This document shows positions 1-29,508 of a stretch of DNA of 64,000 nucleotides, in pieces (position 1 is the first letter of the stretch; each line of letters begins with the position of its first letter). This DNA comes from Blastococcus sp. LR1 (GTDB taxonomy: Bacteria; Actinomycetota; Actinomycetes; Mycobacteriales; Geodermatophilaceae). A program made the translations under genes and the position numbers. Below the pieces are notes generated by a model that worked only from the letters and a program-made list of their open reading frames with translations, had not been told where the DNA came from and searched no databases. The DNA is taken from positions 310,001 through 374,000 of the forward strand of contig NZ_JAIUJY010000003.1 in the NCBI RefSeq assembly GCF_020166105.1, given 5' to 3'.

Positions 1-408
1 GTCGGCCACCACGCGCGCCATGTCGGGGTCGGCGAGGCCACCGCTCACGTCGTTGACGAGCACCGCGCCGGCCTCGAGGGCGGCCGTCGCCACGACCGCG
101 CGGGTGGTGTCGATGCTGACCGCCACCCCGGCGCTCGCGAGCCCGGCGACGACCGGCAGGACGCGGCGGAGCTCCTCCGCCGGCTCCACCCGCCCGGCGC
201 CGGGCCGGGTGGACTCCCCGCCGACGTCGACGGAGTCCGCACCCGCGGCCACCATCGCGAGCCCGTGCGCCACGGCGGCGTCGGTCGAGGCGTAGCGGCC
301 GCCGTCGGAGAAGGAATCGGGCGTGACGTTGAGGATGCCCATGACGGAGCACCGGTCCGAGCGGGGGAGGGCCACCCCGGTTCCGGCCGGCAGCAGGGCC
401 GCGCTCAT
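1..408 (-). CDS. folP: Dihydropteroate synthase, N-terminal half (cut by window edge)
   Basis: Dihydropteroate synthase joins p-aminobenzoate to the pterin diphosphate in cytoplasmic folate synthesis. About 136 N-terminal residues are visible of a family that is usually near 280. The family signature NVTPDSFSDGG is at about residues 27-37 and GGESTRPGAG follows near 63-72; VSIDTTR and VNDVSGG also fit. The ATG overlaps the stop of the upstream fchA-like gene (ATGA), so it is translationally coupled to it. It is the most distal visible member of a minus-strand operon containing pabBC, folD and metF, which suggests it feeds THF to the O-demethylases upstream. The C-terminal half, and whatever follows, lies outside the window. 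Confidence 0.95.
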   Translation of the reverse strand, partial: MSAALLPAGTGVALPRSDRCSVMGILNVTPDSFSDGGRYASTDAAVAHGLAMVAAGADSVDVGGESTRPGAGRVEPAEELRRVLPVVAGLASAGVAVSIDTTRAVVATAALEAGAVLVNDVSGGLADPDMARVVAD

Positions 409-1034
409 CCGCGCAGGACCTTCCGCACGTCGGCCTCGACCGCATCGGCCCGGCGCGTGAGGTCGTCGGCCGCGGCCGTCGCGGCGGCGAGGTCGGCGGC
501 CGCCCCGTCGTCGTCCATGCCGGCGAGGTTGGTCTCGACGGCCAGCAGCGCGGTCGTCGCGGCCGCGCGGGCGGCGGCGGTCGCGGCGGCGACGTCGCTC
601 ACCAGGTTGCGGTTGGCCACCGGGAGGATCCGCTCGGCCAGCGACACCAGGTCGGCGGCGATCCCGAGGATCGCGCGCGGCGGTCGCGCCGCGTCGAGCT
701 GGGCCTCGGCCATGGACCGGCGGCGGGTCTCCTTCTGCTCGTCGGTGTCCCGGGGCAGCTTCATCGCCGCGGCGACGGCGGAGAACGCCTTCTCGTCGGC
801 GGCGGCCGCCTCGAGTGCGGCGTCACGTCCGGTGTCCGCGGCGGCCACGATCCCGCCGACGAGCTCCGCGTGCTGCTCCTCGGTGGTGAACCGGCCGACC
901 ATGGCGACCAGCGACGCGGCCAGCGCCGCCTCGATCGCCGCTGCCGCGCCGGCGCCGGGGGCGGACAGCCGCGCGGCGAGCTCGCCGAGGAACTCGCCCA
1001 TGGTCTGGCGGGGCAGATCGGGGTTGGTGTCCAT
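405..1034 (-). CDS. fchA: Cyclodeaminase/methenyl-THF cyclohydrolase family protein
   Basis: This 209-residue protein belongs to the formiminotransferase-cyclodeaminase C-terminal family, which includes stand-alone methenyl-THF cyclohydrolases (FchA). Seen: the N-terminal block around SAPGAGAAAAIEAALAASLVAMV, the acidic-then-basic helical middle, and an Ala-rich helical C-terminus ending in VRKVLRG, all typical of the all-helical fold. It would hydrolyse 5,10-methenyl-THF to 10-formyl-THF, a step also provided by FolD two genes upstream. Its place between pabBC (46-base gap) and folP (4-base overlap) puts it in the one-carbon/folate part of the aromatic operon. Redundancy with FolD could raise flux of demethylation-derived carbon; that is inference. 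Histidine-degradation context is absent. Confidence 0.85.
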   Translation of the reverse strand: MDTNPDLPRQTMGEFLGELAARLSAPGAGAAAAIEAALAASLVAMVGRFTTEEQHAELVGGIVAAADTGRDAALEAAAADEKAFSAVAAAMKLPRDTDEQKETRRRSMAEAQLDAARPPRAILGIAADLVSLAERILPVANRNLVSDVAAATAAARAAATTALLAVETNLAGMDDDGAAADLAAATAAADDLTRRADAVEADVRKVLRG

Positions 1035-1080
1035 GGCTCCGGTTCGCAGTCTCGGTGGGGAGGGGCGTCGGGGGAGTGGC

Positions 1081-2865
1081 TCAGGGCGTGGGCTGCAGGG
1101 CGGGTCCGGGCGGCTGGTGCACGACGAGGGTCGCCGATCGCCATCCGCGCAGCGAGCTCACGACGGCGATCTCCTCGGCGGCGAGGAGATCCGCCGGCCG
1201 CAGCACGCGTTCGGAGAGCAGGCCCAGGTCGAGCAGGCGTCCCCGTTCGACCCCGGGCAGGCAGCCCGCTGCGGTCGGCGGCGTCCACCACCGCCCGTCC
1301 AGCCGCACGGCCACGGTGGCGATCGTCGTCTCGGTGACCTCGCCGCGGGTGTTGACCAGCACGACGTCGTCGGCCCCCGGATGCCGCAGCGCGGCGGAGA
1401 CGTAGACGTCGCGCCGGGTCGTCTTGTGCTGCAACCAGGGGTCGCCGGGGTCGACCGGCTCGTCGTCCAGCGCCAGCCGCACCGGGGCCGTGCCCGTGCC
1501 GGGCAGCGGATGAAGCTCGACGTCGACGGCGCCGTCGCGGGAGAGCAGGACGCGGATCCGTGCTGGCTCGGCCCGGCCGGCCAACGCGCGCTCGACGGCG
1601 CTCCGGATCTCGTCGGGATCGCAGCGGAAGTCCGACCACGCCGCGGAGTCGGCCATCCGGGCCAGGTGCTGGTCCAGGTTGCGCGGACCGTCGACGGGGT
1701 CGAAGGCCAGGGTCTCCAGCAGCTGGTGCTCGGTGACGTCGTGGGTGAGGACCGCGGCCTTGGCGTGCAGCTCGGCCAGCTCGCGCCCGGCGTCGGAGTC
1801 CCAGGTGATGCCCCCGCCGGCCCCGTAGACGGCCCGCCCGGTCGAGCGGTCCAGGACCACGGTGCGGATGGCGACGTTGAACCGGGCGCGGAACGGCGCC
1901 GACGGCGGCGCGACGAGCCCGACGGCGCCGCAGTAGACGCCCCGCGGGCTCGGCTCCAGCTCGGCGATCAGCTCCATCGTCCGCTGCTTGGGTGCCCCCG
2001 TGACCGAGCCGCAGGGGAAGAGCGCCCGGAAGAGCTCCAGCAGCCCTGTGCCCGGCCGCACCCGTGCGGAGATCTCCGAGGTCAGCTGCCAGACGGTCGG
2101 GTAGCGCTCCAGCGCGAAGAGCTCGTCCACCCGCACGCTCCCGACCTCGGCGATCCGGCCCAGGTCGTTGCGCAGCAGGTCCACGATCATGAGGTTCTCC
2201 GCGCGTTCCTTGGCGCTGGAGAGCAGTGCCGAGGACTGCTCGCGGTCCTCGGCCGTGGTGCGCCCGCGGGTGGCCGTGCCCTTCATCGGTCGGGTGCGCA
2301 CCTCGTCCCCGGCCCACTCGAAGAACAGCTCCGGGCTGGCGCTGGCGACGACGTGCCGCCCCAGGTCCAGGTAGGCGTTGTGCGCGCCGCGCTGGGCCAG
2401 CGCCAGCCGCGCGTAGAGCTCCTCCGGATCGCCCGCGACCGACGACCGCAGCCGGTCGGTGAGGTTGCACTGATAGGTCTCCCCGGCGGCGATCGCCTCG
2501 CGAACGGTGGCGACTCCGTCGGCGTGCTCCCGATCAGACCAGTCGGGCAGCCAGGCGGCGCCGCCGGCGGCGGCGGGGGAGACGACCGGAGCCACCGGCA
2601 CCGGCTCGTCGCAGAGCCCGAACCACACCAGCGGCGGCTCGCCCGGCGCGGTGCTCCCGCCGGGCAGGCGCGGGTCGAGCCCGGACGCCGCCTCGTAGGC
2701 CACGTAGCCGTAGGCCCAACTGCCGGCCTCGGTCGCGTCGTGCACCGCCTGCAGCACGCCGGCGACCTCGTCCGGCCGGGTCGCGGTCAGCACCTCCCGG
2801 GGCGGAGGGCAGCGCAACGCCGTCCCCGCCCGGAGGTCGTCGAACCGCGCCCACGGCCCGGGCAT
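1081..2865 (-). CDS. pabB: Aminodeoxychorismate synthase component I fused to aminodeoxychorismate lyase
   Basis: This 594-residue protein fuses PabB (about 1-375) and PabC (about 385-590) and makes p-aminobenzoate for folate. In the PabB part, PMKGT at 193-197 holds the lysine (K195) that forms the chorismate adduct in PabB enzymes, and FPCGSVTGAPKQR (283-295) is the chorismate-binding signature. In the PabC part, LQHKTTRR holds the aminotransferase class IV PLP lysine (K481), and VTETTIATVAV is the usual cofactor-loop block. The N-terminal TrpG-like insert seen in some PabB proteins is short. The start overlaps the folD stop by one base, so the two are coupled. A glutamine amidotransferase partner (PabA) was not seen here. 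Fused PabBC proteins are common in bacteria, but placement inside an aromatic operon is unusual. Confidence 0.93.
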   Translation of the reverse strand: MPGPWARFDDLRAGTALRCPPPREVLTATRPDEVAGVLQAVHDATEAGSWAYGYVAYEAASGLDPRLPGGSTAPGEPPLVWFGLCDEPVPVAPVVSPAAAGGAAWLPDWSDREHADGVATVREAIAAGETYQCNLTDRLRSSVAGDPEELYARLALAQRGAHNAYLDLGRHVVASASPELFFEWAGDEVRTRPMKGTATRGRTTAEDREQSSALLSSAKERAENLMIVDLLRNDLGRIAEVGSVRVDELFALERYPTVWQLTSEISARVRPGTGLLELFRALFPCGSVTGAPKQRTMELIAELEPSPRGVYCGAVGLVAPPSAPFRARFNVAIRTVVLDRSTGRAVYGAGGGITWDSDAGRELAELHAKAAVLTHDVTEHQLLETLAFDPVDGPRNLDQHLARMADSAAWSDFRCDPDEIRSAVERALAGRAEPARIRVLLSRDGAVDVELHPLPGTGTAPVRLALDDEPVDPGDPWLQHKTTRRDVYVSAALRHPGADDVVLVNTRGEVTETTIATVAVRLDGRWWTPPTAAGCLPGVERGRLLDLGLLSERVLRPADLLAAEEIAVVSSLRGWRSATLVVHQPPGPALQPTP

Positions 2866-3737
2866 CAGCCGCCCAGTTCCTCGAGCAGCCCCTGCTGGGC
2901 GATCGCCGCGGTCAGGGTGTTGGCCAGCAGCATGGCGATGGTCATGGGACCGACGCCGCCGGGCACCGGGGTGAGCAGCCCGGCGACCTCGGCCACCTCG
3001 TCGTACCGGACGTCGCCGACCAGCCCGTTCTCGCCGCGGTGGATGCCGACGTCGATGACGGTGGCGCCGGGCTTCACGGCGTCGGCGCCGATCAGACCCG
3101 GGATCCCGGCGGCGACGACCAGCACGTCGGCGCGGCGGCAGACCTCGGCGACGTCCTTCGTGCGGGAGTGGCAGGTGGTCAGCGTCGCGTGCCGGCCGAG
3201 CAGCAGCTGCGCCATCGGCTTGCCGACCAGCGGGGACCGGCCGACGACGACCGCCTCGACCCCGGACAGGGCGACGTCGTACTCGTCGAGCAGCCGCAGC
3301 ACCCCGGCCGGGGTGCAGGGCCGGAGTCCCGGCCGGCCCTGGGCGAGCAGGCCGGCGTTGAGCGTCGTGAGCCCGTCGACGTCCTTCTCAGCCGGGATGC
3401 GGGCGACGAGGGCGTCCGCATCCAGGTGCTTCGGCACCGGCAGCTGGAGCAGGATGCCGGAGACCGCCGGGTCGGCGGCCAGCTCGTCGAGCAGCGCCTC
3501 GAGGGTCGCCTGGTCGACGTCGCCGGGCAGGTGCCGGTGCAGGTCGACCATGCCGGCCTCGACGCTGAGCCGGCGCTTGTTGCGGACGTAGACCTCCGAC
3601 GCCGGGTCGTCCCCGACCAGCACCGTCGCCAGCCCGGGCGCGGTGCCGCCGGCGGCGAGGAGCCGCTGCACCCCCGAGGCGACCTCGTCCCGGACCTCGC
3701 GCGCGACGGCCTTGCCGTCGATGACCCGGGCGGTCAT
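2865..3737 (-). CDS. folD: Methylene-THF dehydrogenase/methenyl-THF cyclohydrolase
   Basis: FolD interconverts 5,10-methylene-THF, methenyl-THF and 10-formyl-THF. The 290-residue protein starting MTARVIDGKAVAREV is full length for the family. Seen: SEVYVRNKRR with the catalytic lysine near residue 57, LLQLPVPKHLD, the PCTPAGVLRLL block, the Rossmann segment VVVGRSPLVGKPMA and the C-terminal PGGVGPMTIAMLL. I chose the ATG at 3737 because it overlaps the metF stop as ATGA; a longer start 11 codons upstream would push into metF. With MetF, FchA and PurU it forms the route that oxidises methyl groups taken from methoxy-aromatics. Lying directly downstream of metF, in the same frame logic, argues for that dedicated role. 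Confidence 0.96.
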   Translation of the reverse strand: MTARVIDGKAVAREVRDEVASGVQRLLAAGGTAPGLATVLVGDDPASEVYVRNKRRLSVEAGMVDLHRHLPGDVDQATLEALLDELAADPAVSGILLQLPVPKHLDADALVARIPAEKDVDGLTTLNAGLLAQGRPGLRPCTPAGVLRLLDEYDVALSGVEAVVVGRSPLVGKPMAQLLLGRHATLTTCHSRTKDVAEVCRRADVLVVAAGIPGLIGADAVKPGATVIDVGIHRGENGLVGDVRYDEVAEVAGLLTPVPGGVGPMTIAMLLANTLTAAIAQQGLLEELGG

Positions 3738-4600
3738 CCGGCCAGGCCGCGCAGCGTGCGGACCCGCCACTCCTCGGTGGGCTCCAGGTCGTTGAACGTG
3801 AAGACGTGGAAGCCGGCGAGGGAGTTGTCCGGCTTGCCCAGGTGCGGCGCCAGGCCCTTGATGATCTTCGTGGGGTCGTAGCCGCCGGGGACGAAGAACC
3901 GCCAGAGCAGCGTCTGCTGCTTCTTCAGGAACTTCGCCGACTCCCCGATCCCCAGGCCGCCGGAGACGCGGAGCAGCTTCTGCCGGCTGACCGAGCCCGG
4001 GACGCCGACGTGCACCGGGAGGTCGATCCCGCGCCGCTTGAGCTCGCGGGCCCAGCGCAGGATCACAGCGGGGTCGAACACGATCTGGGTGGTGATGTGG
4101 GTGGCGAGCGGCGCCTTGTCCGCGAGCGCCTGGAAGAGGACGTCCTCGCTGACCGAGGGGTGGCCCTCGGGGTGCCCGCCGATGCCGATGTCGGTGAAGC
4201 CGTGGTCGAGCTCGTGCAGGGCCACCAGCAGGGCGTGCGCGTCCTTGAACTCCGTCGGCACCTCGGTCGGGTCACCGCCGACCACGAACGCCCCGGTGAT
4301 CCCGGCCTCGCGGCAGCGGGCGACCAGGTCGGCGAGGTGGGAGCGGTCCCGGACCTGCTGGGCGGAGAAGTGCGGCGCCACCGAGTACCCGGCGGCGGCC
4401 AGGGCGACGGCGAGGTCGATGGTCACGTCCTGGCCCTTGGCCGGCGAGGCGGTCACCGTCAGCGGGACCTCCCGGGGCACGTGCTGCAGCACCTGCTCCT
4501 GGGTCTTCTTGAACGGGATGACCTCGTACCCGAGGTGCTCGAAGGTCGTCAGCAGCGCGGCGCGGGTGCTCGCGTCGCGGACGTTGAGAGCGCGGTTCAC
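3734..4600 (-). CDS. metF: Methylenetetrahydrofolate reductase family protein
   Basis: This 288-residue TIM-barrel flavoprotein family member interconverts 5-methyl-THF and 5,10-methylene-THF. Seen: VTASPAKGQD near residues 49-58, SVAPHFSAQQVRDR, GAFVVGGDPTEVP near 100-112, GIGGHPEGHPSV near 138-149 and the segment THITTQIVFDP, all typical of MetF. It starts with GTG and follows ligB after 34 bases; its stop overlaps the folD start. In Sphingobium SYK-6 a MetF next to ligM recycles methyl-THF made by O-demethylation, and the position here, inside an operon with a LigM-type enzyme, fits the same job in the oxidative direction. It could also serve methionine synthesis, but no methionine gene is near. 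Confidence 0.92.
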   Translation of the reverse strand: MNRALNVRDASTRAALLTTFEHLGYEVIPFKKTQEQVLQHVPREVPLTVTASPAKGQDVTIDLAVALAAAGYSVAPHFSAQQVRDRSHLADLVARCREAGITGAFVVGGDPTEVPTEFKDAHALLVALHELDHGFTDIGIGGHPEGHPSVSEDVLFQALADKAPLATHITTQIVFDPAVILRWARELKRRGIDLPVHVGVPGSVSRQKLLRVSGGLGIGESAKFLKKQQTLLWRFFVPGGYDPTKIIKGLAPHLGKPDNSLAGFHVFTFNDLEPTEEWRVRTLRGLAG

Positions 4601-4634
4601 GGTGCCTTCTCTCGTAGGGGAGGGTCGCCCGCGC

Positions 4635-5483
4635 TCAGGCGGGGCGGTTGTCCAGGAGCGCGATGCCGGCGGCGGTGTTGGACGCCGGCAGGAAGTAGTG
4701 CGAGTGCACCTTGGTGACCTGCGGGTTCATCGCCCCGCGCATGATCAGCCACATGATCAGCTCGATCCCCTCGGAGCCCGCCTGACGGATGAGCTCCTCG
4801 CGGCTGAGCGCGGCCAGCGCCGCGGGATCGGTCTGGATCTTCTCCAGCCACATGGCGTCGAACTCGGGGTTGATGAAGCCGGCCCGGGAGCCCGCGAGCT
4901 GGTGGGACATGCCGCCGGTGCCGAGGATGCCGACGGTGACGTCGTCGCGGTAGGAGGAGATCGCCCGGCCGAGCGCCTGGCCCAGGGCGTAGCAGCGGGA
5001 CGCGGTGGGCTGCGGGTACTGGATGACGTTGACCAGGATCGGCACCACGGGGCACGGCCAGGCGTCGCCCGGGTCCGGGGTCCACACCGAGAGGGGCACG
5101 GTCAGCCCGTGGTCGACCTCGAGCTCCTGGAAGACGGTGAGGTCGAAGCCCTCGTCGACCAGGCTCTCCAGCAGGTGCAGCGACAGGTCCGGGTCGCCGA
5201 TGACGTCGGGCACCTGCCGGGGGCCGTAGCCCTCGTCCGCGACCGTGTAGCTGTCCGCGGTGCCGATCCCGAAGGTCGGGATGATGTCCAGGTCCAGGCC
5301 GTTGGCGTGGTCGTTGTAGACCACGATCGCCACGTCCGGCTTGTGCTCGGCGAGCCACTCCCGGGCGGGGGCGTAGCCGTCGAAGAGGTCCTTCCAGTTC
5401 GGGTCCTCGGTCTTGCCGCGGTCCATGGCCGCGCCGATCGACGGCACGTGCGACGTCGCCAGACCCCAGATCACGTCAGCCAT
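4635..5483 (-). CDS. ligB: LigB-type extradiol ring-cleavage dioxygenase, catalytic subunit
   Basis: This is the beta (catalytic) subunit of a type II extradiol dioxygenase of the protocatechuate 4,5-dioxygenase/gallate dioxygenase family. The 282-residue length fits LigB. The iron ligands expected from SYK-6 LigB are in place: H12 (in ATSHVPS), H59 (in YNDHAN) and E241 (in GIEL); H194 (in GGMSHQL) and H125 (in VDHGLTVP) match the active-site histidines. The start overlaps ligA by eight bases. The genes for both PrpF-type tautomerase and LigJ/LigK occur 19 kb away while LigC and LigI were not seen, so gallate, giving 4-oxalomesaconate directly, is a more likely substrate than protocatechuate. 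That substrate choice is inference. Confidence 0.95.
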   Translation of the reverse strand: MADVIWGLATSHVPSIGAAMDRGKTEDPNWKDLFDGYAPAREWLAEHKPDVAIVVYNDHANGLDLDIIPTFGIGTADSYTVADEGYGPRQVPDVIGDPDLSLHLLESLVDEGFDLTVFQELEVDHGLTVPLSVWTPDPGDAWPCPVVPILVNVIQYPQPTASRCYALGQALGRAISSYRDDVTVGILGTGGMSHQLAGSRAGFINPEFDAMWLEKIQTDPAALAALSREELIRQAGSEGIELIMWLIMRGAMNPQVTKVHSHYFLPASNTAAGIALLDNRPA

Positions 5484-5844
5484 CCCGGCGACCCCCTGCT
5501 CGCAGCTCTGCCTGGAACTCCTCCTCGGTCATGCCGGTGAAGACACCACCGAGGTACTGCATCGACCGGCCGTCCATCATGGCCAGCTTGTAGACGTAGA
5601 AGATGCTGCCGCCGAGGTCGATCATCGCCGTCCAGTCGCGGTCCAGGACCGCCTGCGTCTGCTCGGGGGCGAGCCCGAACTCCGTGCAGTAGGCGGCCTC
5701 GTCGTCGGAGAACCGGTCGCGGTTCTCCGCTGCGCGGAAGCTCATGAGCATCTTGTTCAGACGCAGTCCGCGCCGGCTGGTCTGCCCGTCGAAGATCGGC
5801 GTCCCGGGCACGTTCAGCCGGCCGCCGGTCTCGGGTGTGCTCAT
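5476..5844 (-). CDS. ligA: LigA-type dioxygenase, small alpha subunit
   Basis: This 122-residue protein is the small helical subunit that caps the LigB active site. Seen: RGLRLNKMLMSFRAAENRDRF, EAAYCTEFGLAPEQTQAVLDRDW and LGGSIFYVYKLAMMDG, the standard LigA pattern (known LigA is about 139 residues). A longer upstream reading frame exists, but the ATG at 5844 has a GAGGGG ribosome site about 10 bases upstream and gives the normal N-terminus. Its stop overlaps the ligB start. Separate LigA and LigB genes differ from the fused single-chain gallate dioxygenases (GalA, DesB), so substrate cannot be read from architecture alone. Confidence 0.94.
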   Translation of the reverse strand: MSTPETGGRLNVPGTPIFDGQTSRRGLRLNKMLMSFRAAENRDRFSDDEAAYCTEFGLAPEQTQAVLDRDWTAMIDLGGSIFYVYKLAMMDGRSMQYLGGVFTGMTEEEFQAELRAGGRRDG

Positions 5845-5879
5845 CGGGGTCCCCTCGGTGGTGGGCGCGGTCGCAGTGG

Positions 5880-6161
5880 TCACGTGGTCCGCTCCTGCGG
5901 ATGGGTCGCCAGCGCCTCGACGTGCACGTCGAGCCAGGGGGCCATCGGCAGGGACATGAGGGCGTCGTGCAGGGCGGCCGGGTCCTCGGCCTCGTACAGA
6001 CCGATCGTGGCGTTGCGGCCGGGAACGCGCCACAGCCGCTTCAGCACGCCCTCGGCACGCAGCTCCATGGCCCGCTTGCGCTCGCCGGCCCGCAGCTCCT
6101 CGCGGCGCTCGGCGGGGGTGTCGACGGGCAGCCGGTTCTCCGACCGGACGAGGAACTCCAT
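5880..6161 (-). CDS. Muconolactone isomerase-like small protein
   Basis: The 93-residue protein has the ferredoxin-like alpha/beta fold signature of the muconolactone delta-isomerase (CatC) family: MEFLVRSENRLP at the start, GVLKRLWRVPGRNATIGLYEAEDPAALHDALMSLPMAPWLDVHVEALATHP at the end. Classical CatC acts in ortho cleavage of catechol, but no catA/catB is nearby; the gene is instead one base from an alpha/beta hydrolase and 35 bases from ligA. It may isomerise a product of meta cleavage, for example the double-bond geometry of a muconate-type product. That role is a guess. I chose the ATG at 6161 because it directly follows the upstream stop and gives the family N-terminus. Confidence 0.8.
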   Translation of the reverse strand: MEFLVRSENRLPVDTPAERREELRAGERKRAMELRAEGVLKRLWRVPGRNATIGLYEAEDPAALHDALMSLPMAPWLDVHVEALATHPQERTT

Positions 6162-6162
6162 C

Positions 6163-6879
6163 TCAGGCACCCTTCTCGTTCGCCAGGCGGTCCAGCAGTT
6201 CGGCCAGCTCCGGCGCGGCGGTGACCATGGCCTCGTGGCCGGTGGCGAGCTCGTGCACCGGCCAGCCGCGCTCGCGGGCCCGGTCGGCCTGGCCGGCGAA
6301 GACCCGCATCCAGTCCACGCACTCGATGAAGGCGGCCGGCACCCGATCGACGGCACCGGTCAGCCGCAGGGCGTCGGTGTAGGTCTTCCAGGGGTGCGGC
6401 GTGAGCTTCGGCAGCAGCCAGTCGACGTCGGCCTGCTCGGTCACGCCCAGCACGGAGAGCTTGCGGACCGCGACGAGCCAGCCGAACCCCTGCTCCGCGG
6501 CCGACTCGGCCCAGTGGTGCTCGACGGTCTCCGGCAGCAGGTCCCGGGCGGCCTCGCCGTCGGCGCCGACGAAGGCATCGAGGTAGACGCGCCGCGCCAC
6601 CGTGTCCGGACGGCGGTCGGCGACGGCGGTGACGATCTGGCCGGCGTAGCTGTGCCCGACGAGGACGACGTCGGTCAGCGCGAAGGTGTCGATCAGCCGG
6701 ACGACGTCCTCGACGTGGGTGTCCAGCCCGACCAGCGGGGAGAGCAGGTGCGCCCGCTCCGACAGCCCGGTCAGGGTCGGGGCGTGGACGTCGTGGCCGG
6801 CGTCGCGCAGCGGGCGCGCCACGCGGTCCCAGCACCAGCCGCCGTGCCAGGCCCCGTGCACGAGGACGAACGTGCTCAT
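6163..6879 (-). CDS. Alpha/beta hydrolase of the ligA operon
   Basis: This 238-residue serine hydrolase has the N-terminal HGAWHGGWCWD oxyanion region (residues 9-19), nucleophile elbow GHSYAG near residue 75, and a late GHEAMV segment holding the catalytic histidine. It belongs to the small esterase/methylesterase-like branch of the superfamily. No signal peptide is seen, so it acts in the cytoplasm. It sits first in the second half of the operon, ahead of a muconolactone-isomerase-like gene and ligAB. Cleavage of 3-O-methylgallate by a LigAB-type enzyme can leave a methyl ester of the ring-opened acid, and an esterase in this position would release methanol; this is inference from context. 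An ester or lactone of another aromatic is the alternative. Confidence 0.8.
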   Translation of the reverse strand: MSTFVLVHGAWHGGWCWDRVARPLRDAGHDVHAPTLTGLSERAHLLSPLVGLDTHVEDVVRLIDTFALTDVVLVGHSYAGQIVTAVADRRPDTVARRVYLDAFVGADGEAARDLLPETVEHHWAESAAEQGFGWLVAVRKLSVLGVTEQADVDWLLPKLTPHPWKTYTDALRLTGAVDRVPAAFIECVDWMRVFAGQADRARERGWPVHELATGHEAMVTAAPELAELLDRLANEKGA

Positions 6880-6929
6880 GCGGCAGTGCCCTCCAGAAGA
6901 TCGTGTGCTGGCTCACGTCCACGCTAAGG

Positions 6930-6958
6930 ATCGCGCCGCGCCGGGGGATCGGCGCGAT
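6930..6958. promoter_or_regulatory. Inverted repeat upstream of the hydrolase-ligAB genes
   Basis: ATCGCGCCG at 6930-6938 is mirrored perfectly by CGGCGCGAT at 6950-6958 with 11 bases between. It lies about 50 bases upstream of the hydrolase start in the 145-base gap after the LigM-type gene. The arm resembles the arm of the larger inverted repeat beside the iclR gene (GGAT followed by GCGCCG, also with an 11-base centre). It may be an operator for an internal promoter. Confidence 0.4.
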
Positions 6959-7024
6959 GTCACCGCGACCTCGCCGATGCCGCCCGGGCGGCCTACGTCA
7001 TCTGTCGTGGGCCCGGCCGGCTGC

Positions 7025-8386
7025 TCAGCGGGCCCGGTAGTTCTCGCGGGCGAAGTCCACGAAGGGGACCGGGGCCACGACGGCCCGGATCTCCACCTGG
7101 CTGTGCTCCTCGACCGCCGGCTTCGCCGAGACCGGCTGCTCGCCCCAGAGCACCGTCACCTCGGTGCCGGGCTCGGCGAGTTCCGCCTCGACGACGGCGA
7201 GGGAGACCATCGCCCGCTCGTTGGCGAGGTAGCCGCAGTCCAGGGAGATCCCGACCGGTCGGCCGTCCACCAGCACCTTGTCCTCGTGGTGGGTGGCGTA
7301 CCGGGCCTTGGGCAGCTCGATGTACTTGGCGCCGGGGCCCGGCGCGAGCAGCGACCCCATCGCCGCGGTGACGTCGTCGGCGTTCCACACCAGCGTCACC
7401 TTGGTGCGCGAGGGCTCCTGCGCTCTCCGCTCGAGCGCCTCGCGGCCGATGAACTCGTGGTCGAACTTCACGGTCTTGCCGTAGCCGACCTCGTAGGGGG
7501 TCAGGCACCAGTCGCGGATGTCCTCGGAGTCCATGCTGCCGCCGATCGACCCGACCTTCGTGACCGGGAGCCACTCCCGGTACTCCTTCATCAGCGGGTC
7601 GTCGGAGAACAGCGCGGTCACCGGGGCGGGCACCCATCCGGACTCGAGGTTGGCCGTCGAATAGGCCTTGGCGCCGACGCGCACGAGCCCGTGGTCCTCG
7701 CCGGCCTCCAGCAGCGCCGCGAGCACGGCTTCGCCGTCCTCCCAGGGGCCGAAGAGCTCGAAGCCGGGCTGCCCGGCCATGCCATGGCGGAGGCCGCGGA
7801 CCCGGCGACCGGCGATGGTGAACTCGGCCATGGAGAAGAACCGCACGTCCGGGAGCGGTGCGCCGCTCACCTGCTCGATCAGGCCTGCCGCGGTCGGGCC
7901 CTGCAGTTCGTACCGGTAGAGCCGGGGCGGCCCGGACCTGCGCACCGCGGAGTTGTCGTCGCGCTCCGCGCTGGCCGTGTAGTCGCCGCGCTCGAGGTGG
8001 AAGGTGACCCAGTCGAGAACCATCGGGTGGCCGACGAGGTCGAACAGTTCGTTCTCGAGGTGGAAGAGGATGGCGTCGCCGATCAGGTGGCCCTCCGGGT
8101 CCACCGCGACGAACTGCTTGGCCTTGCCGACGCCGAAGTTCGCGAAGCTGTTGACGCCGACGTCGCTGAACAGCCGGAGCGCGTCGGGACCGGAGACGAA
8201 CAGATCGGTCATGTGGTGGGAGTGGTCCAGCAGCGCGCAGCTCTCCACCCACGACCGCTGCTCGGAGCGCCAGTTGGTGAACTCCGGCCGCACCGGGAAG
8301 GTGCTCGGCGGGAAGCTCAGGTTGCGGAGGAGCTCGACCGGGCTGCCGGCCCGGGCGAGGGCGGAGGCGAGGGACTCGGACGTCAC
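7025..8386 (-). CDS. LigM/DesA-type THF-dependent aromatic O-demethylase (copy 2)
   Basis: This 453-residue protein of the GcvT/aminomethyltransferase fold matches the family of Sphingobium LigM (vanillate/3-O-methylgallate) and DesA (syringate), which move an aryl methyl group to THF. Seen: PEFTNWRSEQRSW near 34-46, the HSHHM motif at 55-59, YELQGP at 159-164, HGMAGQPGFELFGPW at 201-215 and AYSTANLESGWVP at 241-253; Y242 lies where the active-site tyrosine of LigM is expected. It starts with GTG after a GAAAGG ribosome site, 26 bases from the P450 stop. Being in one operon with metF, folD and folate genes supports methyl transfer to THF. It is clearly divergent from copy 1 at 15.4 kb, so the two probably prefer different substrates. 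Confidence 0.9.
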   Translation of the reverse strand: MTSESLASALARAGSPVELLRNLSFPPSTFPVRPEFTNWRSEQRSWVESCALLDHSHHMTDLFVSGPDALRLFSDVGVNSFANFGVGKAKQFVAVDPEGHLIGDAILFHLENELFDLVGHPMVLDWVTFHLERGDYTASAERDDNSAVRRSGPPRLYRYELQGPTAAGLIEQVSGAPLPDVRFFSMAEFTIAGRRVRGLRHGMAGQPGFELFGPWEDGEAVLAALLEAGEDHGLVRVGAKAYSTANLESGWVPAPVTALFSDDPLMKEYREWLPVTKVGSIGGSMDSEDIRDWCLTPYEVGYGKTVKFDHEFIGREALERRAQEPSRTKVTLVWNADDVTAAMGSLLAPGPGAKYIELPKARYATHHEDKVLVDGRPVGISLDCGYLANERAMVSLAVVEAELAEPGTEVTVLWGEQPVSAKPAVEEHSQVEIRAVVAPVPFVDFARENYRAR

Positions 8387-8412
8387 AGGACGCACCTTTC
8401 GTCGGACGGAGC

Positions 8413-9624
8413 TCAGTCGAGGGTGACCCGCACCGGAACGCTCTCCAGCGCCCGCAGGGTGTTGTTGTGGTGCCGGACGGTCGGGCCGTCGAGTTCGATC
8501 GAGCGGACCCGCCGGGCCAGCGCCGTCACGATGGACACCGCCTCCAGGCGGGCGACGTGCTGGCCGACGCACTGGTGGATGCCCATGCCGAAGCCGACGT
8601 GCCCCGACGGATCGCGCGCGAGGTCGAAGCGGTCGGGGTCGGCCCAGCGCCGCGGATCCCGGTTGGCCGCGGCCAGGAACATCAGCACCTTGCGCCCTTC
8701 GGGGACGACGACGTCGCCGATCCGGACGTCGGTGGTCGCGGTCCGGAAGAAGGTCTGCACCGGCGACTCCCAGCGCACCGCCTCGTCGAAGGCGACGCGG
8801 GCCAGCGCCGGCTCGGCGCGCAGCCGCTGCCACTGGTCGGGGTGGGTGGCGAAGGCGTAGAGGATCGCGGAGATGCCGTGCACGGTGGTGTCGACGCCGG
8901 CGGTCAGCAGCGAGCGGACGGCGAGCGGCGCCTGCTCGGGGGTGATCTCGCCCCGGTCGCTGGCGGCCCAGATGTCGGCGCCGAAGCCGGTCGGGGCCAG
9001 CACCTCCCGCCGGCACTGCTCGTTCACCCAGCCGGAGAGCTCGGCCACCCGGGGCGCACCCTTGGCGACCAGGTCGTTGGCCGGGCCGAACGCGTTGAAC
9101 GCGTGGTCGCCGTAGGGCAGCAGCTTCTCCCGCCCGGGCTGTGGAATGCCGACGGCGTCGGGGAACACCCGCAGGGGGAACACCGCCCCGAGGTCCTTCG
9201 CGGCGTCGAAGGTGGTGCCGCGCGCCAGCACCTCGTCGACCAGGGCGTCGGCGTCGGCGGCCCAGTCCTCCCGCAGCCGGCGCAGCGCCCGGGGGTCGAG
9301 CACCTTCTGCAGCACCCGGCGCGGGGCGTCGTGCCGGGGCGGGTCGGCCTCGAGCAGGATGCTGGGCGGGCGCCACGGCTCCTCGTACCGGAAGTTCGAC
9401 AGGCCGACCCCGGCCGAGGACTCGAACTCCTGCCAGTTGACCAGCGCCGCGTGCACGTCGTCGTAGCGGGCCAGCGCGAAGGTGTCGTACCGCTCGAGGA
9501 GCACGACCGGCCCGGCCTCGCGCAACGCCTCGTGCATCGGGAGCGGGTCCTCGAGCACCTCGGAGCCGAAAGGGTCCGCATCGCTGGTCGGAACGGTGCT
9601 GCTGGGGCGCGCGGGAGCGGTCAC
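8413..9624 (-). CDS. CYP199-like cytochrome P450, aromatic acid O-demethylase/hydroxylase
   Basis: This 403-residue soluble P450 has the heme motif GFGMGIHQCVGQ (Cys352), the I-helix AGVDTT (242-247) and the K-helix EAVR (281-284). It resembles CYP199A4 of Rhodopseudomonas palustris (4-methoxybenzoate demethylase) over most of its length. The residues that hold the benzoate carboxylate in CYP199A4 are matched: R85 and S88 in WRPPS, and R237-S238 in VRSLL. A para-substituted benzoate such as anisate, veratrate or 4-hydroxybenzoate is thus the likely substrate. GTG start with a GGAAGG site; it lies 32 bases after a matching reductase gene. Demethylation by P450 would give formaldehyde, unlike the THF route of the next gene. 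Confidence 0.93.
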   Translation of the reverse strand: MTAPARPSSTVPTSDADPFGSEVLEDPLPMHEALREAGPVVLLERYDTFALARYDDVHAALVNWQEFESSAGVGLSNFRYEEPWRPPSILLEADPPRHDAPRRVLQKVLDPRALRRLREDWAADADALVDEVLARGTTFDAAKDLGAVFPLRVFPDAVGIPQPGREKLLPYGDHAFNAFGPANDLVAKGAPRVAELSGWVNEQCRREVLAPTGFGADIWAASDRGEITPEQAPLAVRSLLTAGVDTTVHGISAILYAFATHPDQWQRLRAEPALARVAFDEAVRWESPVQTFFRTATTDVRIGDVVVPEGRKVLMFLAAANRDPRRWADPDRFDLARDPSGHVGFGMGIHQCVGQHVARLEAVSIVTALARRVRSIELDGPTVRHHNNTLRALESVPVRVTLD

Positions 9625-9656
9625 GGGGAGCCTTCCGGAGTTCAGAGGTCGAGGAC

Positions 9657-10634
9657 TCAGAGGTCGAGGACGAGGCGCTCGTCGCGCGAGCGGGAGACGC
9701 AGACGTACATGCAGTCGCCGACCTGCCGTTCGTCGTCGTCGAGCAGGGCGTCGCGGTGGTCGGGCCGCCCGGCCAGCACGGTGGTCTCGCAGGTGCCGCA
9801 GACGCCGCTGCGGCAGGAGGAGAGCACCTCCACCCCGACGCGGTTGAGCGCCTCCAGCACCGTGACGTCCGGCGTCACGGTGACCGTGGTGCCGGTGCGG
9901 GCGAGCTCCACCTCGAACGGCGCGGTCCGCGCCGGCGCCCCGGCGTCGTCGGCGACGAACCGCTCGACGCGCAGGCTGTACGGCGGCCAGTAGGCGCACG
10001 TCCGCTCCATCGCGGCGAGCAGCGGAGCGGGCCCACAGGAGTAGATGCGGACGCCCGCGCGCGGCTCGCCCACGAAGCCGGGCAGGTCGAGCAGGCCGAA
10101 CTCGTCCTCCGGCCGCACCAGCACCCGGTCGCCGTAGCCGGCCAGCTCGTCGAGGAAGGCCATCGAGTCGCGCCGGCGCCCGCCGTAGAGGAGCCGCCAG
10201 TCGGCGCCGAGCTGCTCGGCCTGCGCCACCATCGGCAGGATCGGGGTGATCCCGATGCCGCCGGCCACGAAGAGGTACCGCGCCGAGGGCACCAGCGGGA
10301 AGTTGTTGCGCGGGCCGCCCACGCCCACCAGGTCGCCCACCCGCAGCTGCTCGTGCACGTAGGCCGAGCCGCCGCGGCTCTCCGGTTCGTGCAGCACGCC
10401 GACCCGGTAGGTGCCGGGGTTCCGGCGGTCGCCGCAGAGCGAGTACTGCCGGGTCAGCCCGTTCGGGAGCACCAGGTCGATGTGCGCGCCGGGCGTCCAG
10501 TCGCGGAGCCGGCCGCCGGAGGGTGACGAGAGCTCCAGGGTCAGCACGCCGTCGGCCTGCGGCTGCTTGCCGGTGACCCGCAGGGTGGCGACGTCGGCGG
10601 CCCCTGCCGCTGGTGCCGGGGAGATCGCGGTCAT
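9657..10634 (-). CDS. Phthalate-dioxygenase-reductase-type flavin/2Fe-2S reductase
   Basis: The 325-residue protein feeds electrons from NAD(P)H to an oxygenase. Seen: flavin-binding RQYSLCGD near residue 66, the NAD domain starting FVAGGIGITPILPM near 125-138 with YSCGP later, and a C-terminal plant-type [2Fe-2S] domain with CRSGVCGTC and a final YVCVSRS cysteine, ending in LVLDL. This order (flavin, nucleotide, FeS) is that of VanB and phthalate dioxygenase reductase. The P450 starts 32 bases downstream, and PDR-type reductases are known partners of CYP199-type P450s in actinobacteria (PbdA/PbdB), so it is its probable partner. No Rieske oxygenase is present. The ATG at 10634 was chosen; the frame continues upstream through the operator region. 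Confidence 0.93.
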   Translation of the reverse strand: MTAISPAPAAGAADVATLRVTGKQPQADGVLTLELSSPSGGRLRDWTPGAHIDLVLPNGLTRQYSLCGDRRNPGTYRVGVLHEPESRGGSAYVHEQLRVGDLVGVGGPRNNFPLVPSARYLFVAGGIGITPILPMVAQAEQLGADWRLLYGGRRRDSMAFLDELAGYGDRVLVRPEDEFGLLDLPGFVGEPRAGVRIYSCGPAPLLAAMERTCAYWPPYSLRVERFVADDAGAPARTAPFEVELARTGTTVTVTPDVTVLEALNRVGVEVLSSCRSGVCGTCETTVLAGRPDHRDALLDDDERQVGDCMYVCVSRSRDERLVLDL

Positions 10635-10709
10635 GCGCTGACCGTGGAGCACGCGGCTGTGACCTGGGAAACACCTTCTCAATGGACGAGACGGCCTGCT
10701 GGCCGGACG

Positions 10710-10795: not shown

Positions 10796-11545
10796 ATGCC
10801 ACGCACCGCGACGGGGGAGTCGTCACTCGCCCGGGCGGTGCGGGTGCTGGACGCCTTCACCGCCGAGGACCCGGAGCTCCGGATCTCCGAGATCGCCCGG
10901 CGGTCCGGGCTGCACGTCGCCACCGCCTCCCGCCTGGTGGGGCAGCTCGCCGACGAGGGGCTCCTGACCCGGGGCGCCGACGGGAGCGTGCGCGTGGGCA
11001 TGCGGCTGTGGGAGCTGGCCTCCCGGGCCGCGCCGACCCGGACGCTGCGCGACGCGGCGCTGCCCTTCCTCGAGGACCTGCACGCCGTCGTGGGCCACCA
11101 CGCCCAGCTCGCGGTCCGGGACGGCGACGAGGTGATCTTCCTGGAGCGGCTGTCGGCGCGGGACGCCGTCATCAACTTCTCGCGGATCGCCGGCCGGCTG
11201 CCGCTGCACATCTCCTCGTCCGGTGTGGTGCTGCTGGCCTACGGCCCACCGGAGCTGCAGGAACGGGTGCTCGCCCGGCCGCTGGAGGGCCGCACGGCGG
11301 CCACCGTCACCTCGCCGGCCCGGCTCCGGAGCCTGCTGGTCCAGGTGCGCCAGCAGGGCTACGCACTCCTGCCCGGGCACGTGCACGAGGACGCGGCGGG
11401 CATCGCGGTTCCCGTGCGGAACGGCCTGGGCGAGGTCGTCGCCTCCCTGTCGGTGATCGTGCCGAACGACGACCGGGCCGCCTCGGCCGTGCCGGTGCTG
11501 CTGGCCGCAGCCCGGGGCATCGGACGGGCCCTGCGGGATCCCTGA
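10796..11545 (+). CDS. IclR-family transcriptional regulator
   Basis: The 249-residue protein has an N-terminal winged helix (about 8-70; LRISEIARRSGLHVATASRLVGQL) and a C-terminal IclR effector domain (about 80-245; HHAQLAVRDGDEVIFLERLS, PLHISSSGVVLLAY, GIAVPVRNGLGEVVASLSVI). IclR proteins PcaR, PobR and PcaU control protocatechuate and hydroxybenzoate genes, binding an aromatic acid. It is divergent from the reductase-P450-ligM operon, with a large inverted repeat between them, so it probably controls that operon in response to an aromatic substrate or intermediate. The frame is open upstream, but the ATG at 10796 is the first that clears the inverted repeat. It ends convergently 16 bases from a hydrolase gene. 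Confidence 0.93.
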   Translation: MPRTATGESSLARAVRVLDAFTAEDPELRISEIARRSGLHVATASRLVGQLADEGLLTRGADGSVRVGMRLWELASRAAPTRTLRDAALPFLEDLHAVVGHHAQLAVRDGDEVIFLERLSARDAVINFSRIAGRLPLHISSSGVVLLAYGPPELQERVLARPLEGRTAATVTSPARLRSLLVQVRQQGYALLPGHVHEDAAGIAVPVRNGLGEVVASLSVIVPNDDRAASAVPVLLAAARGIGRALRDP

Positions 11546-12908: not shown

Positions 12909-13571
12909 TCACTGCGGCTGGACGAGCCCCTCCTTGACGGCGAGCAGCGCCGCCTGCGTGCGGGAGGTGAGCCCCATCTTGGTGAGCAGGTGGCTCACGT
13001 GGGTGCGCGCGGTCCGCTCGCTGATCACCAGGTGCCGGGCGATGTCCTTGTTGGAGCGCCCCTCGGCGATCAGCACCAGCACCTCCTTCTCGCGGGCGGT
13101 GAGCACGCCGAGGCCGGTCCGGGGAGCGCGGATCTCCTGGGTGAGCCGGCGGGTCACCGCGGCGTCGAGGAAGACCTCGTCGCGCACCGCGGCGCGCAGG
13201 GCGGCGTGCACCTCGGCCGGGCCGGCGTCCTTGAGCAGGTAGCCCGACGCGCCCCGCTCGAGTGCGGCGTGCACCCGCTCCACCTCGCCGAAGCTGGTCA
13301 GGATCACGACCTTGACGTCGGGGAACCGCCGCACGATCTCCTGGGTGGCGGTGACGCCGTCCATGCCGGGCATCTGCAGGTCCATCAGGGCGACGGCGGG
13401 CAGCCCGTCCAGCGACGCGGCCCGGGCGAGGAAGTCCAGCGCCTCCTGGCCGTTGCCCGCCTCGCCGGCGACCTCGACGTCCTCCAGCGCCTCGAGGTAG
13501 GCGACCACGCCGCGGCGGACGACGGCGTGGTCGTCGACCACCAGGACCCGGATCGGGTGCGGACCGGTCAC
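12909..13571 (-). CDS. NarL/FixJ-family response regulator
   Basis: This 220-residue regulator has a receiver domain (about 5-125: LVVDDHAVVRRG, phosphoacceptor aspartate in ALMDLQMPGMDG, lysine in GYLLKDAGP) and a C-terminal LuxR-type helix-turn-helix (TAREKEVLVLIAEGRSNKDIARHLVISERTARTHVSHLL region, about 155-200). It starts with a GTG that overlaps the histidine kinase stop (GTGA), so kinase and regulator form a coupled pair. The pair lies between the ferredoxin genes and the second LigM-type gene, which hints at control of the aromatic island, but no target site was identified. Confidence 0.95.
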   Translation of the reverse strand: MTGPHPIRVLVVDDHAVVRRGVVAYLEALEDVEVAGEAGNGQEALDFLARAASLDGLPAVALMDLQMPGMDGVTATQEIVRRFPDVKVVILTSFGEVERVHAALERGASGYLLKDAGPAEVHAALRAAVRDEVFLDAAVTRRLTQEIRAPRTGLGVLTAREKEVLVLIAEGRSNKDIARHLVISERTARTHVSHLLTKMGLTSRTQAALLAVKEGLVQPQ

Positions 13572-15256
13572 GGGCTGAACTCCTCGTCGTCGGTGTGCGG
13601 GGTCGGTGTCGGGGTGGTGGGCACGGGGGCGGTGGGAAGGCTGGCGAGCAACGGCAGCGTCAGCTGCACGCGCGTTCCGCCGGAGGGGAGGTCGCGCACC
13701 CGCACGACGCCGCCCCACCGCGACGCGCGCTCCTGCATGGCGGTCATGCCGAAGCCGCCGGAGGGCGGGCCCTCCTCGTGCGGGCGGGGCTCGTCGCCGA
13801 GCCCGCAGCCGTCGTCGATGACCTCGGCGACGAGCCGCCGGCGGCTGCCGTGCGGAGTCACCGCCACCCGGACGCGCATGGTGGCCGCGGACGCGTGCTT
13901 CACGCTGTTGTGCACCGCCTCGGCGATGATCCGGTAGACGTCCTCGACGAGGTCGGGATCGAGCCCCGCCAGCTCGTCGGCGGGGTCGTCCACCTCCAGC
14001 GAGGCGTCCAGGCCGGTCCGCGCCCCGGTGGTGTCGACCAGGCTGCGCAGCGCCGAACCGAGCCCGCGGGCGGTGCCGGTCGCCGGGCGCAGCTCCACGA
14101 CCATGCCGCGCAGGTCGGCGAGCACGTCCTCGGCGCTGGTGCTCAGGTCGTCGGCCACCTGGGCGACCTTCTCCGGCGCCGGTGGGAGGCCGCGCTCCAC
14201 CAGCACCCCGAGCGAGCGCGCCTGCATCATCATCGAGAAGACCTGCTGGACGACGGAGTCGTGCAGGTCGCGGGCCAGGCGCTGGCGCTCCTCGCGGCTG
14301 GCGACGTCCCGCTCGCGTTCGAGGAGCGCGGCGTGGTCGACGGCCATCGCCGCCTGCTCGGCCATCGCGAGCAGGAACTCCAGCTCGGCGTCGCCCACGA
14401 TCTGCCCGGGGGCGAAGTAGGCGTTCAGGATGCCGACCGGTTCCCGGCGGGCCAGGAGGGGGACGCTGGCGAACCAGCCCCAGCGCGGGCTGCCCATCAG
14501 CTCGTGCAGCGGAGCCCAGGCCGGGTCCTGCATCACGGCGTCGTACCGGTCGCCCACGACGACAGGGGTCCGGCTCTCGAGCGCCTCCAGCATCACCAGC
14601 CGGGCGCCCCGCGCACGGCACTCCATGAGCTTGTCGAAGAAGTCCGGCGTACGGACGAATCCTGCCGCGCCCATGACGTGCAGCCGGTCGCCGGTCGAGT
14701 TGACGGTCATGACCTGGACGCCGGCGAGCGAGTCGGCCCGCGCCACCTCGCGGGCCAGGGCCTCGAGGGTGCCGACCAGGGAACGCTTGGTCGCCACGCT
14801 GGACGCCGCCTTGGCGATGGCGGCCAGTCGTCGTTGCTGCTGCCGGCTGACCGTCACGTCGCGGAAGGACACGACCCACTCGTCCCGGTCCGGAACGCGG
14901 TCGACGAGGTAGGCGAACTCGCGCCGGCCGGGCCCGGTCCGCCACTCCACGGTGGTCTCCGTCGCGCCGCCGGCGGCCGGCGTGGAGCCGGGTACGGGGA
15001 AGGGTGAAGGGATGCCCGCGACGTCGCCGGGCGGGAGGCCGCAGAGGGCGCGGGCAGCGGGGTTCGCGGCCACGAAGCGGGCGTCGGCGTCGATGACCGC
15101 CAGCCCCTCGGGCGCGTGCTGGAAGACCTCGCGGGGGGTTCCGTCCGCGGAGGACGGCTGCTGCGCCGGCGGGACGTCGAGCTGCACCGGGGCCACCTCC
15201 CGTCCATGCCGGCCGAATCGGTCGCCGGAATCGATCACCGTGATCGACTCGGCCAT
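13568..15256 (-). CDS. PAS-GAF histidine kinase of the NarL/DegS type
   Basis: This 562-residue kinase has a PAS domain (about 42-155: VFQHAPEGLAVIDADARFVAANPAAR), a GAF domain (about 165-330: VQVMTVNSTGDRLHVMGAAGF, GWFASVPLL), a HisKA_3 dimerisation block with the phosphorylated histidine in LARDLHDSVVQQVF, and a HATPase domain (NSVKHASA, VIDDGCGLG, GGFGMTAMQERA). No membrane segment is seen, so it senses inside the cell, perhaps an aromatic ligand through GAF. I chose the ATG at 15256 (MAESITVID); the open frame continues upstream through a terminator-like repeat. A later start is possible because a palindrome covers the first codons. Confidence 0.93.
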   Translation of the reverse strand: MAESITVIDSGDRFGRHGREVAPVQLDVPPAQQPSSADGTPREVFQHAPEGLAVIDADARFVAANPAARALCGLPPGDVAGIPSPFPVPGSTPAAGGATETTVEWRTGPGRREFAYLVDRVPDRDEWVVSFRDVTVSRQQQRRLAAIAKAASSVATKRSLVGTLEALAREVARADSLAGVQVMTVNSTGDRLHVMGAAGFVRTPDFFDKLMECRARGARLVMLEALESRTPVVVGDRYDAVMQDPAWAPLHELMGSPRWGWFASVPLLARREPVGILNAYFAPGQIVGDAELEFLLAMAEQAAMAVDHAALLERERDVASREERQRLARDLHDSVVQQVFSMMMQARSLGVLVERGLPPAPEKVAQVADDLSTSAEDVLADLRGMVVELRPATGTARGLGSALRSLVDTTGARTGLDASLEVDDPADELAGLDPDLVEDVYRIIAEAVHNSVKHASAATMRVRVAVTPHGSRRRLVAEVIDDGCGLGDEPRPHEEGPPSGGFGMTAMQERASRWGGVVRVRDLPSGGTRVQLTLPLLASLPTAPVPTTPTPTPHTDDEEFSP

Positions 15257-15387: not shown

Positions 15388-16905
<1,518 letters not shown>

Positions 16906-29249: not shown

Positions 29250-29508
29250 GGGTCCTCCGGGTGCGGCGGGGCGGTGCGGCACAGGGTGCGCGTCGGCGGT
29301 GCCCGCGGCAAGAGCCGGACCACCGTCCGCGGAGGAGAGGAGACGAGCGCTGCTGCCGCCTACGTCGATTGTCGCGGACCGGGTGGCAGGTCCTGCTGTC
29401 CGCGAGACGTCATCTGCGGCATCCGTCACACTCGTTCGCTGCATACGTTTCGCACGGACCACTCGAAGCGGCCGGTGGACGACCGCGTGACCCTCAGGAG
29501 GAGACGCG

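Follow-up and report, generated by a model that had tools for sequence, protein, structure and literature searches.

Tetrahydrofolate-synthesis genes in a predicted methoxy-aromatic O-demethylation gene series of Blastococcus sp. LR1 and at related loci

Introduction

The transfer of methyl groups to tetrahydrofolate (THF), their oxidation to formate and the return of THF are known chemistry of the enzyme families considered here. In Sphingobium lignivorans SYK-6, the O-demethylase LigM works together with a one-carbon pathway containing the methylene-THF reductase (MTHFR) S6MTHFR (PMC12585457). In Methylobacterium extorquens CM4, the chloromethane plasmid pCMU01 carries a THF-dependent methyl pathway along with folD, metF2, purU and folC2 (PMC3621897). 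Here, we analyse a stretch of 64,000 nucleotides (the window, G000:C3:310001-374000) from the 4.02-Mb genome of Blastococcus sp. LR1, in which a series of minus-strand genes predicted to act on methoxy-aromatics contains a gene for a PabB-PabC fusion (pabBC) and a second gene for dihydropteroate synthase (DHPS; folP).

The Blastococcus locus resembles that of SYK-6 in that a GCV_T-type O-demethylase is predicted to methylate THF and a divergent MTHFR to take the methyl group further, but PMC12585457 mentions no folate-synthesis gene, whereas the Blastococcus series has pabBC and a second folP. Plasmid pCMU01 shares with it the presence of a second folate-synthesis gene (folC2) on methyl-pathway DNA and differs in the methyl source and the first enzymes, CmuA and CmuB; its table, in the available part of the paper, gives no copy of folP, pabA, pabB or pabC, and folC2 is the nearest, partial precedent (PMC3621897). 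No description of an O-demethylation locus with folP or pabB was found in the open-access literature, as judged by titles and the beginnings of abstracts, and the available parts of PMC9404685 and PMC10602745 contain nothing on folate genes. Catabolic clusters with cofactor-synthesis genes are already known; what appears to be new is the presence of folate-synthesis genes in O-demethylation operons.

Results and discussion

Gene content of the series

Gene calling was extended beyond the window edge, and the products were identified by Pfam and NCBIfam profiles. The original prediction had described a minus-strand series from a reductase gene to folP, and this was borne out, with the order reductase-P450-DesA/LigM-like-hydrolase-MIase-LigA-LigB-MetF-FolD-PabBC-FchA-FolP-ALDH. 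The series runs about 2 kb past the window start, where it ends with an aldehyde dehydrogenase (ALDH) gene, the next called gene lying on the opposite strand. Its twelve junctions measure 98, 26, 145, 1, 35, -8, 34, -4, -1, 46, -4 and -4 bases (negative values denoting overlaps), and the expectation of overlaps or gaps below 50 bases held for all except the first (98, reductase/P450) and the third (145, DesA-like/hydrolase). Because the gene order is conserved in relatives, the series is more than a chance arrangement.

The following genes are on the minus strand unless stated otherwise. PabBC (1081..2865) scored 351.8 bits with TIGR00553 (cut-off 328.4) and 384.8 with PRK07508, under the cut-off of 452; its PabC part contains a class IV aminotransferase domain (Aminotran_4, 128.6 bits) with predicted lyase activity. 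The second FolP is encoded by positions 1..408 and 555 bases before the window (L005:17446-18408) and reached 304.2 bits with TIGR01496 (cut-off 162.6). It is overlapped by 4 bases by the called aldehyde dehydrogenase gene (L005:15953-17449, outside the window), whose product reached none of the NCBIfam cut-offs shown (best BADH, 333 of 668.6). The one-carbon genes comprise folD (2865..3737, Pfam and NCBIfam), a gene for a divergent MTHFR (MetF-like, 3734..4600; Pfam MTHFR 33 bits, cut-off 24) and one for an FchA-like methenyl-THF cyclohydrolase (405..1034). The nearest solved sequence to the MetF-like protein is 7xg9 (113.8 bits), which we take to be S6MTHFR of SYK-6. The proposed presence of FchA stands at the family level (Pfam FTCD_C 131.9 bits, a clear match) and not at that of the equivalog NF045657, where the protein lies far below the cut-off (93.5 of 275 bits).

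Demethylation is represented by a CYP199-like cytochrome P450 (8413..9558), its likely partner, a flavin/2Fe-2S reductase (9657..10652; Pfam Fer2, NAD_binding_1), and a DesA/LigM-like GCV_T O-demethylase (7025..8386). A GcoA-type identity of the P450 was rejected, as its best matches among solved sequences are CYP199 proteins (9g9q CYP199, 639 bits; CYP199A4, 481 bits). The product of 7025..8386 had been taken for a LigM-type enzyme; it resembles DesA and LigM, but scores below both NCBIfam equivalog cut-offs (DesA 562 of 800, LigM 493 of 580) and is regarded as DesA-like, with THF-dependent methyl transfer predicted from its GCV_T match. The clear LigM (vanillate/3-O-methylgallate O-demethylase) is encoded outside the series at 15388..16788, with 896.8 bits for the equivalog NF047885 (cut-off 580), and a formyl-THF deformylase, PurU, at 29509..30381 on the plus strand (Pfam Formyl_trans_N, ACT). 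The ring-cleavage genes code for LigA, the alpha subunit of protocatechuate 4,5-dioxygenase (5476..5844; TIGR02792 equivalog, 117.3 bits, cut-off 108.6), and LigB, a class III extradiol dioxygenase beta subunit (4635..5483; NF009903 subfamily, 378.4 bits, cut-off 317), and are accompanied by genes for an alpha/beta hydrolase (6163..6879; Pfam Abhydrolase_6) and a muconolactone-isomerase family protein (5880..6161; Pfam MIase). LigAB is reportedly the ring-cleavage enzyme of SYK-6 as well.

Copy number and proposed function of the folate genes

Four Pterin_bind matches were found in the genome: the operon FolP, a housekeeping FolP (69.5% identical to it), a third match (42.7%) and an open frame of 1273 amino acids, taken for MetH on account of its length. 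The three Chorismate_bind matches are TrpE and isochorismate synthase, both over their cut-offs, and PabBC from the operon, which exceeds that for PabB. The operon FolP is therefore an extra copy and PabBC the sole PabB found; the possibility that PabBC is also an extra copy was rejected for this genome, as no other PabB is among the Chorismate_bind matches. The proposal that the operon carries de novo folate genes applies to pabBC and folP, the only members of the complete set (folE, folB, folK, folP, pab, folC, folA) that it holds according to Pfam and NCBIfam. The housekeeping folP lies in the order folE-folP-folB-folK on contig C2 (neighbours named from position and N-termini), and the dihydrofolate reductase (DHFR) gene on C6, away from the operon. 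A second full folate operon elsewhere, which the original prediction had named as a finding that would speak against it, is thus present in part, as folE-folP-folB-folK without pabB.

On balance, we consider it probable that this methoxy-aromatic regulon supplies its own methyl acceptor, in that regulons for THF-dependent demethylation carry steps of THF synthesis and thereby enlarge the acceptor pool. The basis for this is formed by the genes, their copy numbers, their linkage across taxa, the label changes on a FolP tree and a shared motif; co-transcription, the increase of the pool, the substrates and the direction of the MetF reaction are what we infer within it. The CYP199-like P450, the DesA-like enzyme and LigM would strip methyl groups from methoxy-aromatics, with the two GCV_T enzymes (DesA-like and LigM) loading them onto THF. 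The MetF-like protein, FolD, FchA and PurU would oxidise methyl-THF stepwise to formate and return THF, the oxidative direction of MetF being assumed by analogy to SYK-6 (PMC12585457), and LigAB would open the ring. PabBC would make p-aminobenzoate, which the second FolP would join to the pterin; as both would be made together with the demethylation enzymes, the THF pool would grow as the flux through it grows. Because THF is a catalytic carrier, the flux can be limited by its pool, which more DHPS and p-aminobenzoate synthase would enlarge. Since PabBC is the only PabB found, the cell as a whole must depend on its basal expression, too.

Relatives within the family and order

A DesA/LigM-type protein was detected in 37 of 397 genomes of the order (at 1e-60) and in 31 of the 112 genomes of the Geodermatophilaceae sample; among the matches listed, the closest named relative by the DesA-like protein was Blastococcus sp. 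TBT05-19 (91%). Comparison of neighbourhoods of 17-20 kb revealed a unit, MetF-FolD-PabBC-(FchA)-(FolP)-(ALDH), that is kept in many Geodermatophilaceae. It directly follows LigAB in the window and in the Blastococcus loci L077-L081 (L079 and L080 have PurU between MetF and FolD, and L078 ends at FolD). Many other relatives have it oriented divergently to a histidine kinase/response regulator pair, which is followed by hydrolase-MIase-LigA-LigB. In L052, only a MetF fragment is seen at the edge of the stretch, with PabBC and FolP lying beyond.

A second FolP (E < 1e-90) was present in 20 of the 31 DesA/LigM-positive family genomes vs 1 of the 81 negative ones (Fisher 2.4e-13), and PabBC in 27 of 31 vs 37 of 81, one of the 37 partial (Fisher 8.3e-5), although these tests ignore kinship. 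In the sole negative exception (G257), the second FolP has as neighbours a gene of serine-dehydratase-like type and a sarcosine-oxidase-alpha-type protein. PabB-like pieces adjoin this FolP near the sarcosine-oxidase-type genes (L234:8953-9741), perhaps a broken copy.

Part of the family evidence fits a reading we regard as unlikely, namely that pabBC is movable in the family and, perhaps with folP, serves general folate synthesis, its place by demethylation genes having no function. Besides being the only PabB found in strain LR1, PabBC occurs with 60-66% identity in other surroundings in some DesA-negative relatives. The genome G397 gave no DesA/LigM hit; in it, a 46-residue remnant with both FolD ends directly precedes an intact PabBC (L217:10180-12137), which indicates from the sequence that the catabolic genes were lost and pabBC retained. 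The operon FolP, in contrast, is a second copy, and three results given below argue against mere relocation: the linked PabB is additional in four of seven genomes, other taxa link different folate genes (folE, folB, folK, folC), and the counted genes are absent from all 40 control loci.

Regulation

In relatives, the promoters in front of the separate folate module have a sequence block in common. A motif matrix was trained on the relatives' METF promoters, the window not being part of the training set. The proportion of promoters at which it exceeded the 99% shuffle level was 20/23 for the hydrolase-LigAB unit, 8/24 for LIGM, 3/28 for DESA, 1/4 for the reductase (with a low score), 0/17 for the ABC (ATP-binding cassette) transporter and 16/21 for METF (mostly training data). 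In the window, the matrix scored 10.4 in the 145-base gap (6880..7024, minus strand), where the motif CGACAGATGACGTA lies at 6994-7007, 20.4 before purU, where a second copy was found by pattern search (29361..29374, minus strand), 5.0 before LigM and -1.8 before the reductase.

The exact pattern CGACRNNYGACGTA, which was written after other sites had been seen, has two occurrences genome-wide, in the 145-base gap and before purU, both in this cluster; with one mismatch allowed, its count in the window was not above chance (3 vs 2.1). In nine DesA-positive genomes, 21 of 26 pattern hits lay within 25 kb of a DesA-like gene (0 of 2 in G120), four of the nine (G146, G352, G016 and G379) and G120 having entered the matrix training through a METF site. 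Four DesA-negative genomes gave 2 hits in total, and a reversed control pattern 0-2 per genome.

Since the motif in the 145-base gap is shared with folate-module and ring-cleavage promoters, the gap is probably a second promoter region under common control. The original prediction had allowed for a break at this point, and the motif makes two transcripts likelier than one joined unit from the reductase to folP; the co-control proposed for demethylation and folate genes agrees with the occurrence of one motif both in the gap and before the relatives' separate folate module. The conserved response regulator is a candidate regulator: the window encodes one (12909-13571) with a histidine kinase (13568-15187; together 12909..15187, minus strand, named by Pfam), a pair kept near the folate module in relatives. 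An IclR-family regulator gene (10844..11545, plus strand; Pfam IclR_C) is divergent from the reductase gene. Scans for promoter and terminator signals were uninformative, with no sigma-70 promoter and a single weak terminator-like site inside MetF, which shuffled sequence would yield as well, and an Rfam search of window positions 1-31000 returned no RNA at gathering score, hence no THF riboswitch.

Occurrence at DesA-like loci of other bacteria

For a wider survey, the best 80 of at least 540 relatives of the DesA-like protein in named genomes were used, with full flanks at 59 of the 80 loci. At least one of folE, folB, folK, folP, pabB, pabC and folC was found by tblastn at 40 of 80 loci, distributed over 16 of 32 genus groups and eight actinobacterial families. 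PabB was seen at 31 loci, FolP at 20, PabC at 19, FolE at four, FolC or a FolC-like protein at three, and FolB and FolK at one each, while metF, folD, purU or fchA occurred at 53 of 80. Neither TrpE and MenF (tblastn) nor DHFR was found near any of the 80 loci. For doubtful cases, NCBIfam models backed the assignments in Actinomadura and Phycicoccus (PabB with a PabA-type domain), Naasia (PabB and FolE; by tblastn also FolB and FolK), Quadrisphaera and Agromyces (FolE), A. sacchari and S. hyderabadensis (DHPS) and Pseudonocardia ICBG1293 (FolC). Some of the 40 positive loci are based on tblastn only (a cut FolE in L147, a 170-bit PabB in L112, FolP pieces in L098), and the FolC matches in L107 and L113 are likewise tblastn matches.

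VanA vanillate demethylases are Rieske enzymes that do not need THF. At 40 VanA loci of the same order, no gene of the folate-synthesis list was found (0/40 vs 40/80, Fisher 1.2e-9), these loci being 40 of 51 places, some ended by contig ends, and covering 749 kb (DesA-like loci, 1,536 kb); a gene for DHFR, which is not in the counted list, was seen at VanA locus L285. The link of folate genes to demethylation is thus not local chance, and the predicted association of pabBC and folP with THF-dependent demethylation recurs at many loci. Of seven outside genomes, whose remaining Chorismate_bind genes were examined in part, four have a PabAB-type protein in addition to the linked PabB, whereas in three the linked PabB is apparently the only one.

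A short MetE-like (Meth_synt_2) protein was observed near DesA-like genes at ten loci (e.g. L099:6736-7896) and on plasmid pLA3 (L269:12780-13907); it could be another outlet for methyl-THF.

Four of the 78 plasmid records with a related protein were examined. On R. opacus pRop44186_a, one 21-kb stretch contains genes for a Mur-ligase family protein (FolC-like), pabB, a DesA-like protein, metF, purU, a folD-type gene, LigAB-type genes and folP. N. pentaromativorans pLA3 carries a folD-type gene and a dihydroneopterin aldolase gene beside LigAB, purU and MTHFR, and the annotation of the Rhizobium and Thermomicrobium plasmid records contains no folate-synthesis genes.

FolP phylogeny and weighing of the evidence

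For a FolP tree, 94 proteins were reduced to 73 rows by removing sequences shorter than 200 residues and those identical to or contained in others; two frames of excessive length were trimmed to 300 residues, and seven rows received the linked label manually, on the basis of coordinates. The label 'linked to C1 genes' requires six changes, five of them forced by well supported branches (shuffled mean 24.7), and several rows are long branches. The operon FolP falls into a Geodermatophilaceae group of 20 rows (support 88/81; 17-row core 99/89), apart from housekeeping FolPs. The branching point at which a seven-row group (Klenkia, Pseudonocardia and S. coffeae; 97/91) attaches is unresolved. Linked FolPs are also found elsewhere in the tree, in Amycolatopsis with Saccharopolyspora, in S. 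hyderabadensis, in A. sacchari with dimethylglycine-type operons, and as single rows. Judged by the tree, a single gain alone does not fit; linkage was gained or lost repeatedly, as the label changes may be gains or losses.

The plasmid-borne copy in R. opacus and the linked FolP of S. coffeae, which groups with linked FolPs of Pseudonocardia and Klenkia and not with its own housekeeping FolP, raise the question of whether the folate genes travel with the operon for the sake of folate-poor hosts, the gain lying in transfer, as opposed to a larger pool once a host is established. Candidate hosts exist: 34 of the 96 family genomes that are at least 90% complete have no more than two Chorismate_bind matches (1e-20), and these near-complete genomes probably lack PabB and may need p-aminobenzoate from outside. 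An extra FolP is kept, however, even where the host has its own (20/31), and the shared motif suggests regulation with the pathway. As the main benefit, portability appears improbable to us; it is compatible with, and does not exclude, supply of the methyl acceptor by the regulon itself.

The separation of linked from housekeeping FolP clades, and the joint retention of FolP, PabBC and, at some loci, a FolC-like ligase, would also be expected if these proteins made a dedicated or modified pterin cofactor for the demethylases. We give this very little credence, since the scores of FolP and PabB are those of an ordinary DHPS and an ordinary aminodeoxychorismate synthase, the sequence contains what we take to be the DHPS motifs and the lysine of the synthase, and the operon showed no unusual pterin enzyme.

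Several observations weigh against supply of the methyl acceptor as the purpose of the linkage. Half of the DesA-like loci (40/80) are without any gene of the list, including 13 of 14 in Microbacterium and 5 of 5 in Micrococcaceae, so the linkage is dispensable for demethylation. Within the family, L051 is without PabBC and FolP and L047 without PabBC, no FolP is found in the stretch at L044, L050, L054, L055, L056, L058 and L071, and 11 of the 31 DesA/LigM-positive genomes have no second FolP at E < 1e-90; pabBC, in turn, occurs in the above-mentioned 37 of 81 DesA-negative relatives. The Fisher tests disregard kinship, as noted, and the reductase promoter of the window is without the motif. 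All support comes from genes and sequence, and the rise of the folate pool on methoxy-aromatics is a prediction.

N-demethylation operons and wider implications

In family members without DesA (L220-L222), a protein with DAO and GCV_T domains is encoded together with FchA, FolD, FolP, serine dehydratase, PurU and PabBC, with a FolC-like ligase added in L220 and L222 (Pfam checks of such operons were made on single members). These dimethylglycine/sarcosine-type operons (L220, L221, L222, L234) share with the O-demethylation operon a GCV_T domain predicted to load THF and, in L220-L222, FchA, FolD, PurU, FolP and PabBC; they differ in serving N-demethylation and in having a flavin adenine dinucleotide (FAD) oxidase/dehydrogenase domain. 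Their FolPs are 49-50% identical to the housekeeping query. The common factor behind the linkage of folate genes thus seems to be the use of THF as methyl acceptor and not lignin. No published account of folate-synthesis genes in N-demethylation operons of this type was found, as judged from the literature listing.

As a tentative generalisation, which we hold possible and no firmer than that, THF-dependent O- and N-demethylation regulons might repeatedly capture steps of folate synthesis, with the sole p-aminobenzoate synthase of Geodermatophilaceae placed under a methoxy-aromatic operator and whole-cell folate thereby tied to lignin catabolism. The recurrence in many bacteria suggests an increased production of the methyl-carrying folate when the pathway is about to load it. 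The supply of methyl acceptor, and not the enzymes only, would then be a limit in lignin-methoxyl catabolism that has been met more than once in evolution. For engineered LigM routes, the addition of folP, pabBC or folC is suggested; p-aminobenzoate auxotrophy is predicted for many Geodermatophilaceae, and stray folP genes may serve as pointers to new THF-dependent demethylases beside them.

Neighbouring genes

Between LigM and PurU, positions 17134-28600 contain genes for major facilitator superfamily (MFS) and branched-chain-type ABC transporters, a GntR regulator and RraA/aldolase, PrpF, glyoxalase-type, NAD-binding and amidohydrolase proteins, which look like uptake functions and later steps of a 4,5-cleavage pathway. 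Genes at positions 32693-42043 resemble purine/ureide catabolism genes, judged from N-termini alone.

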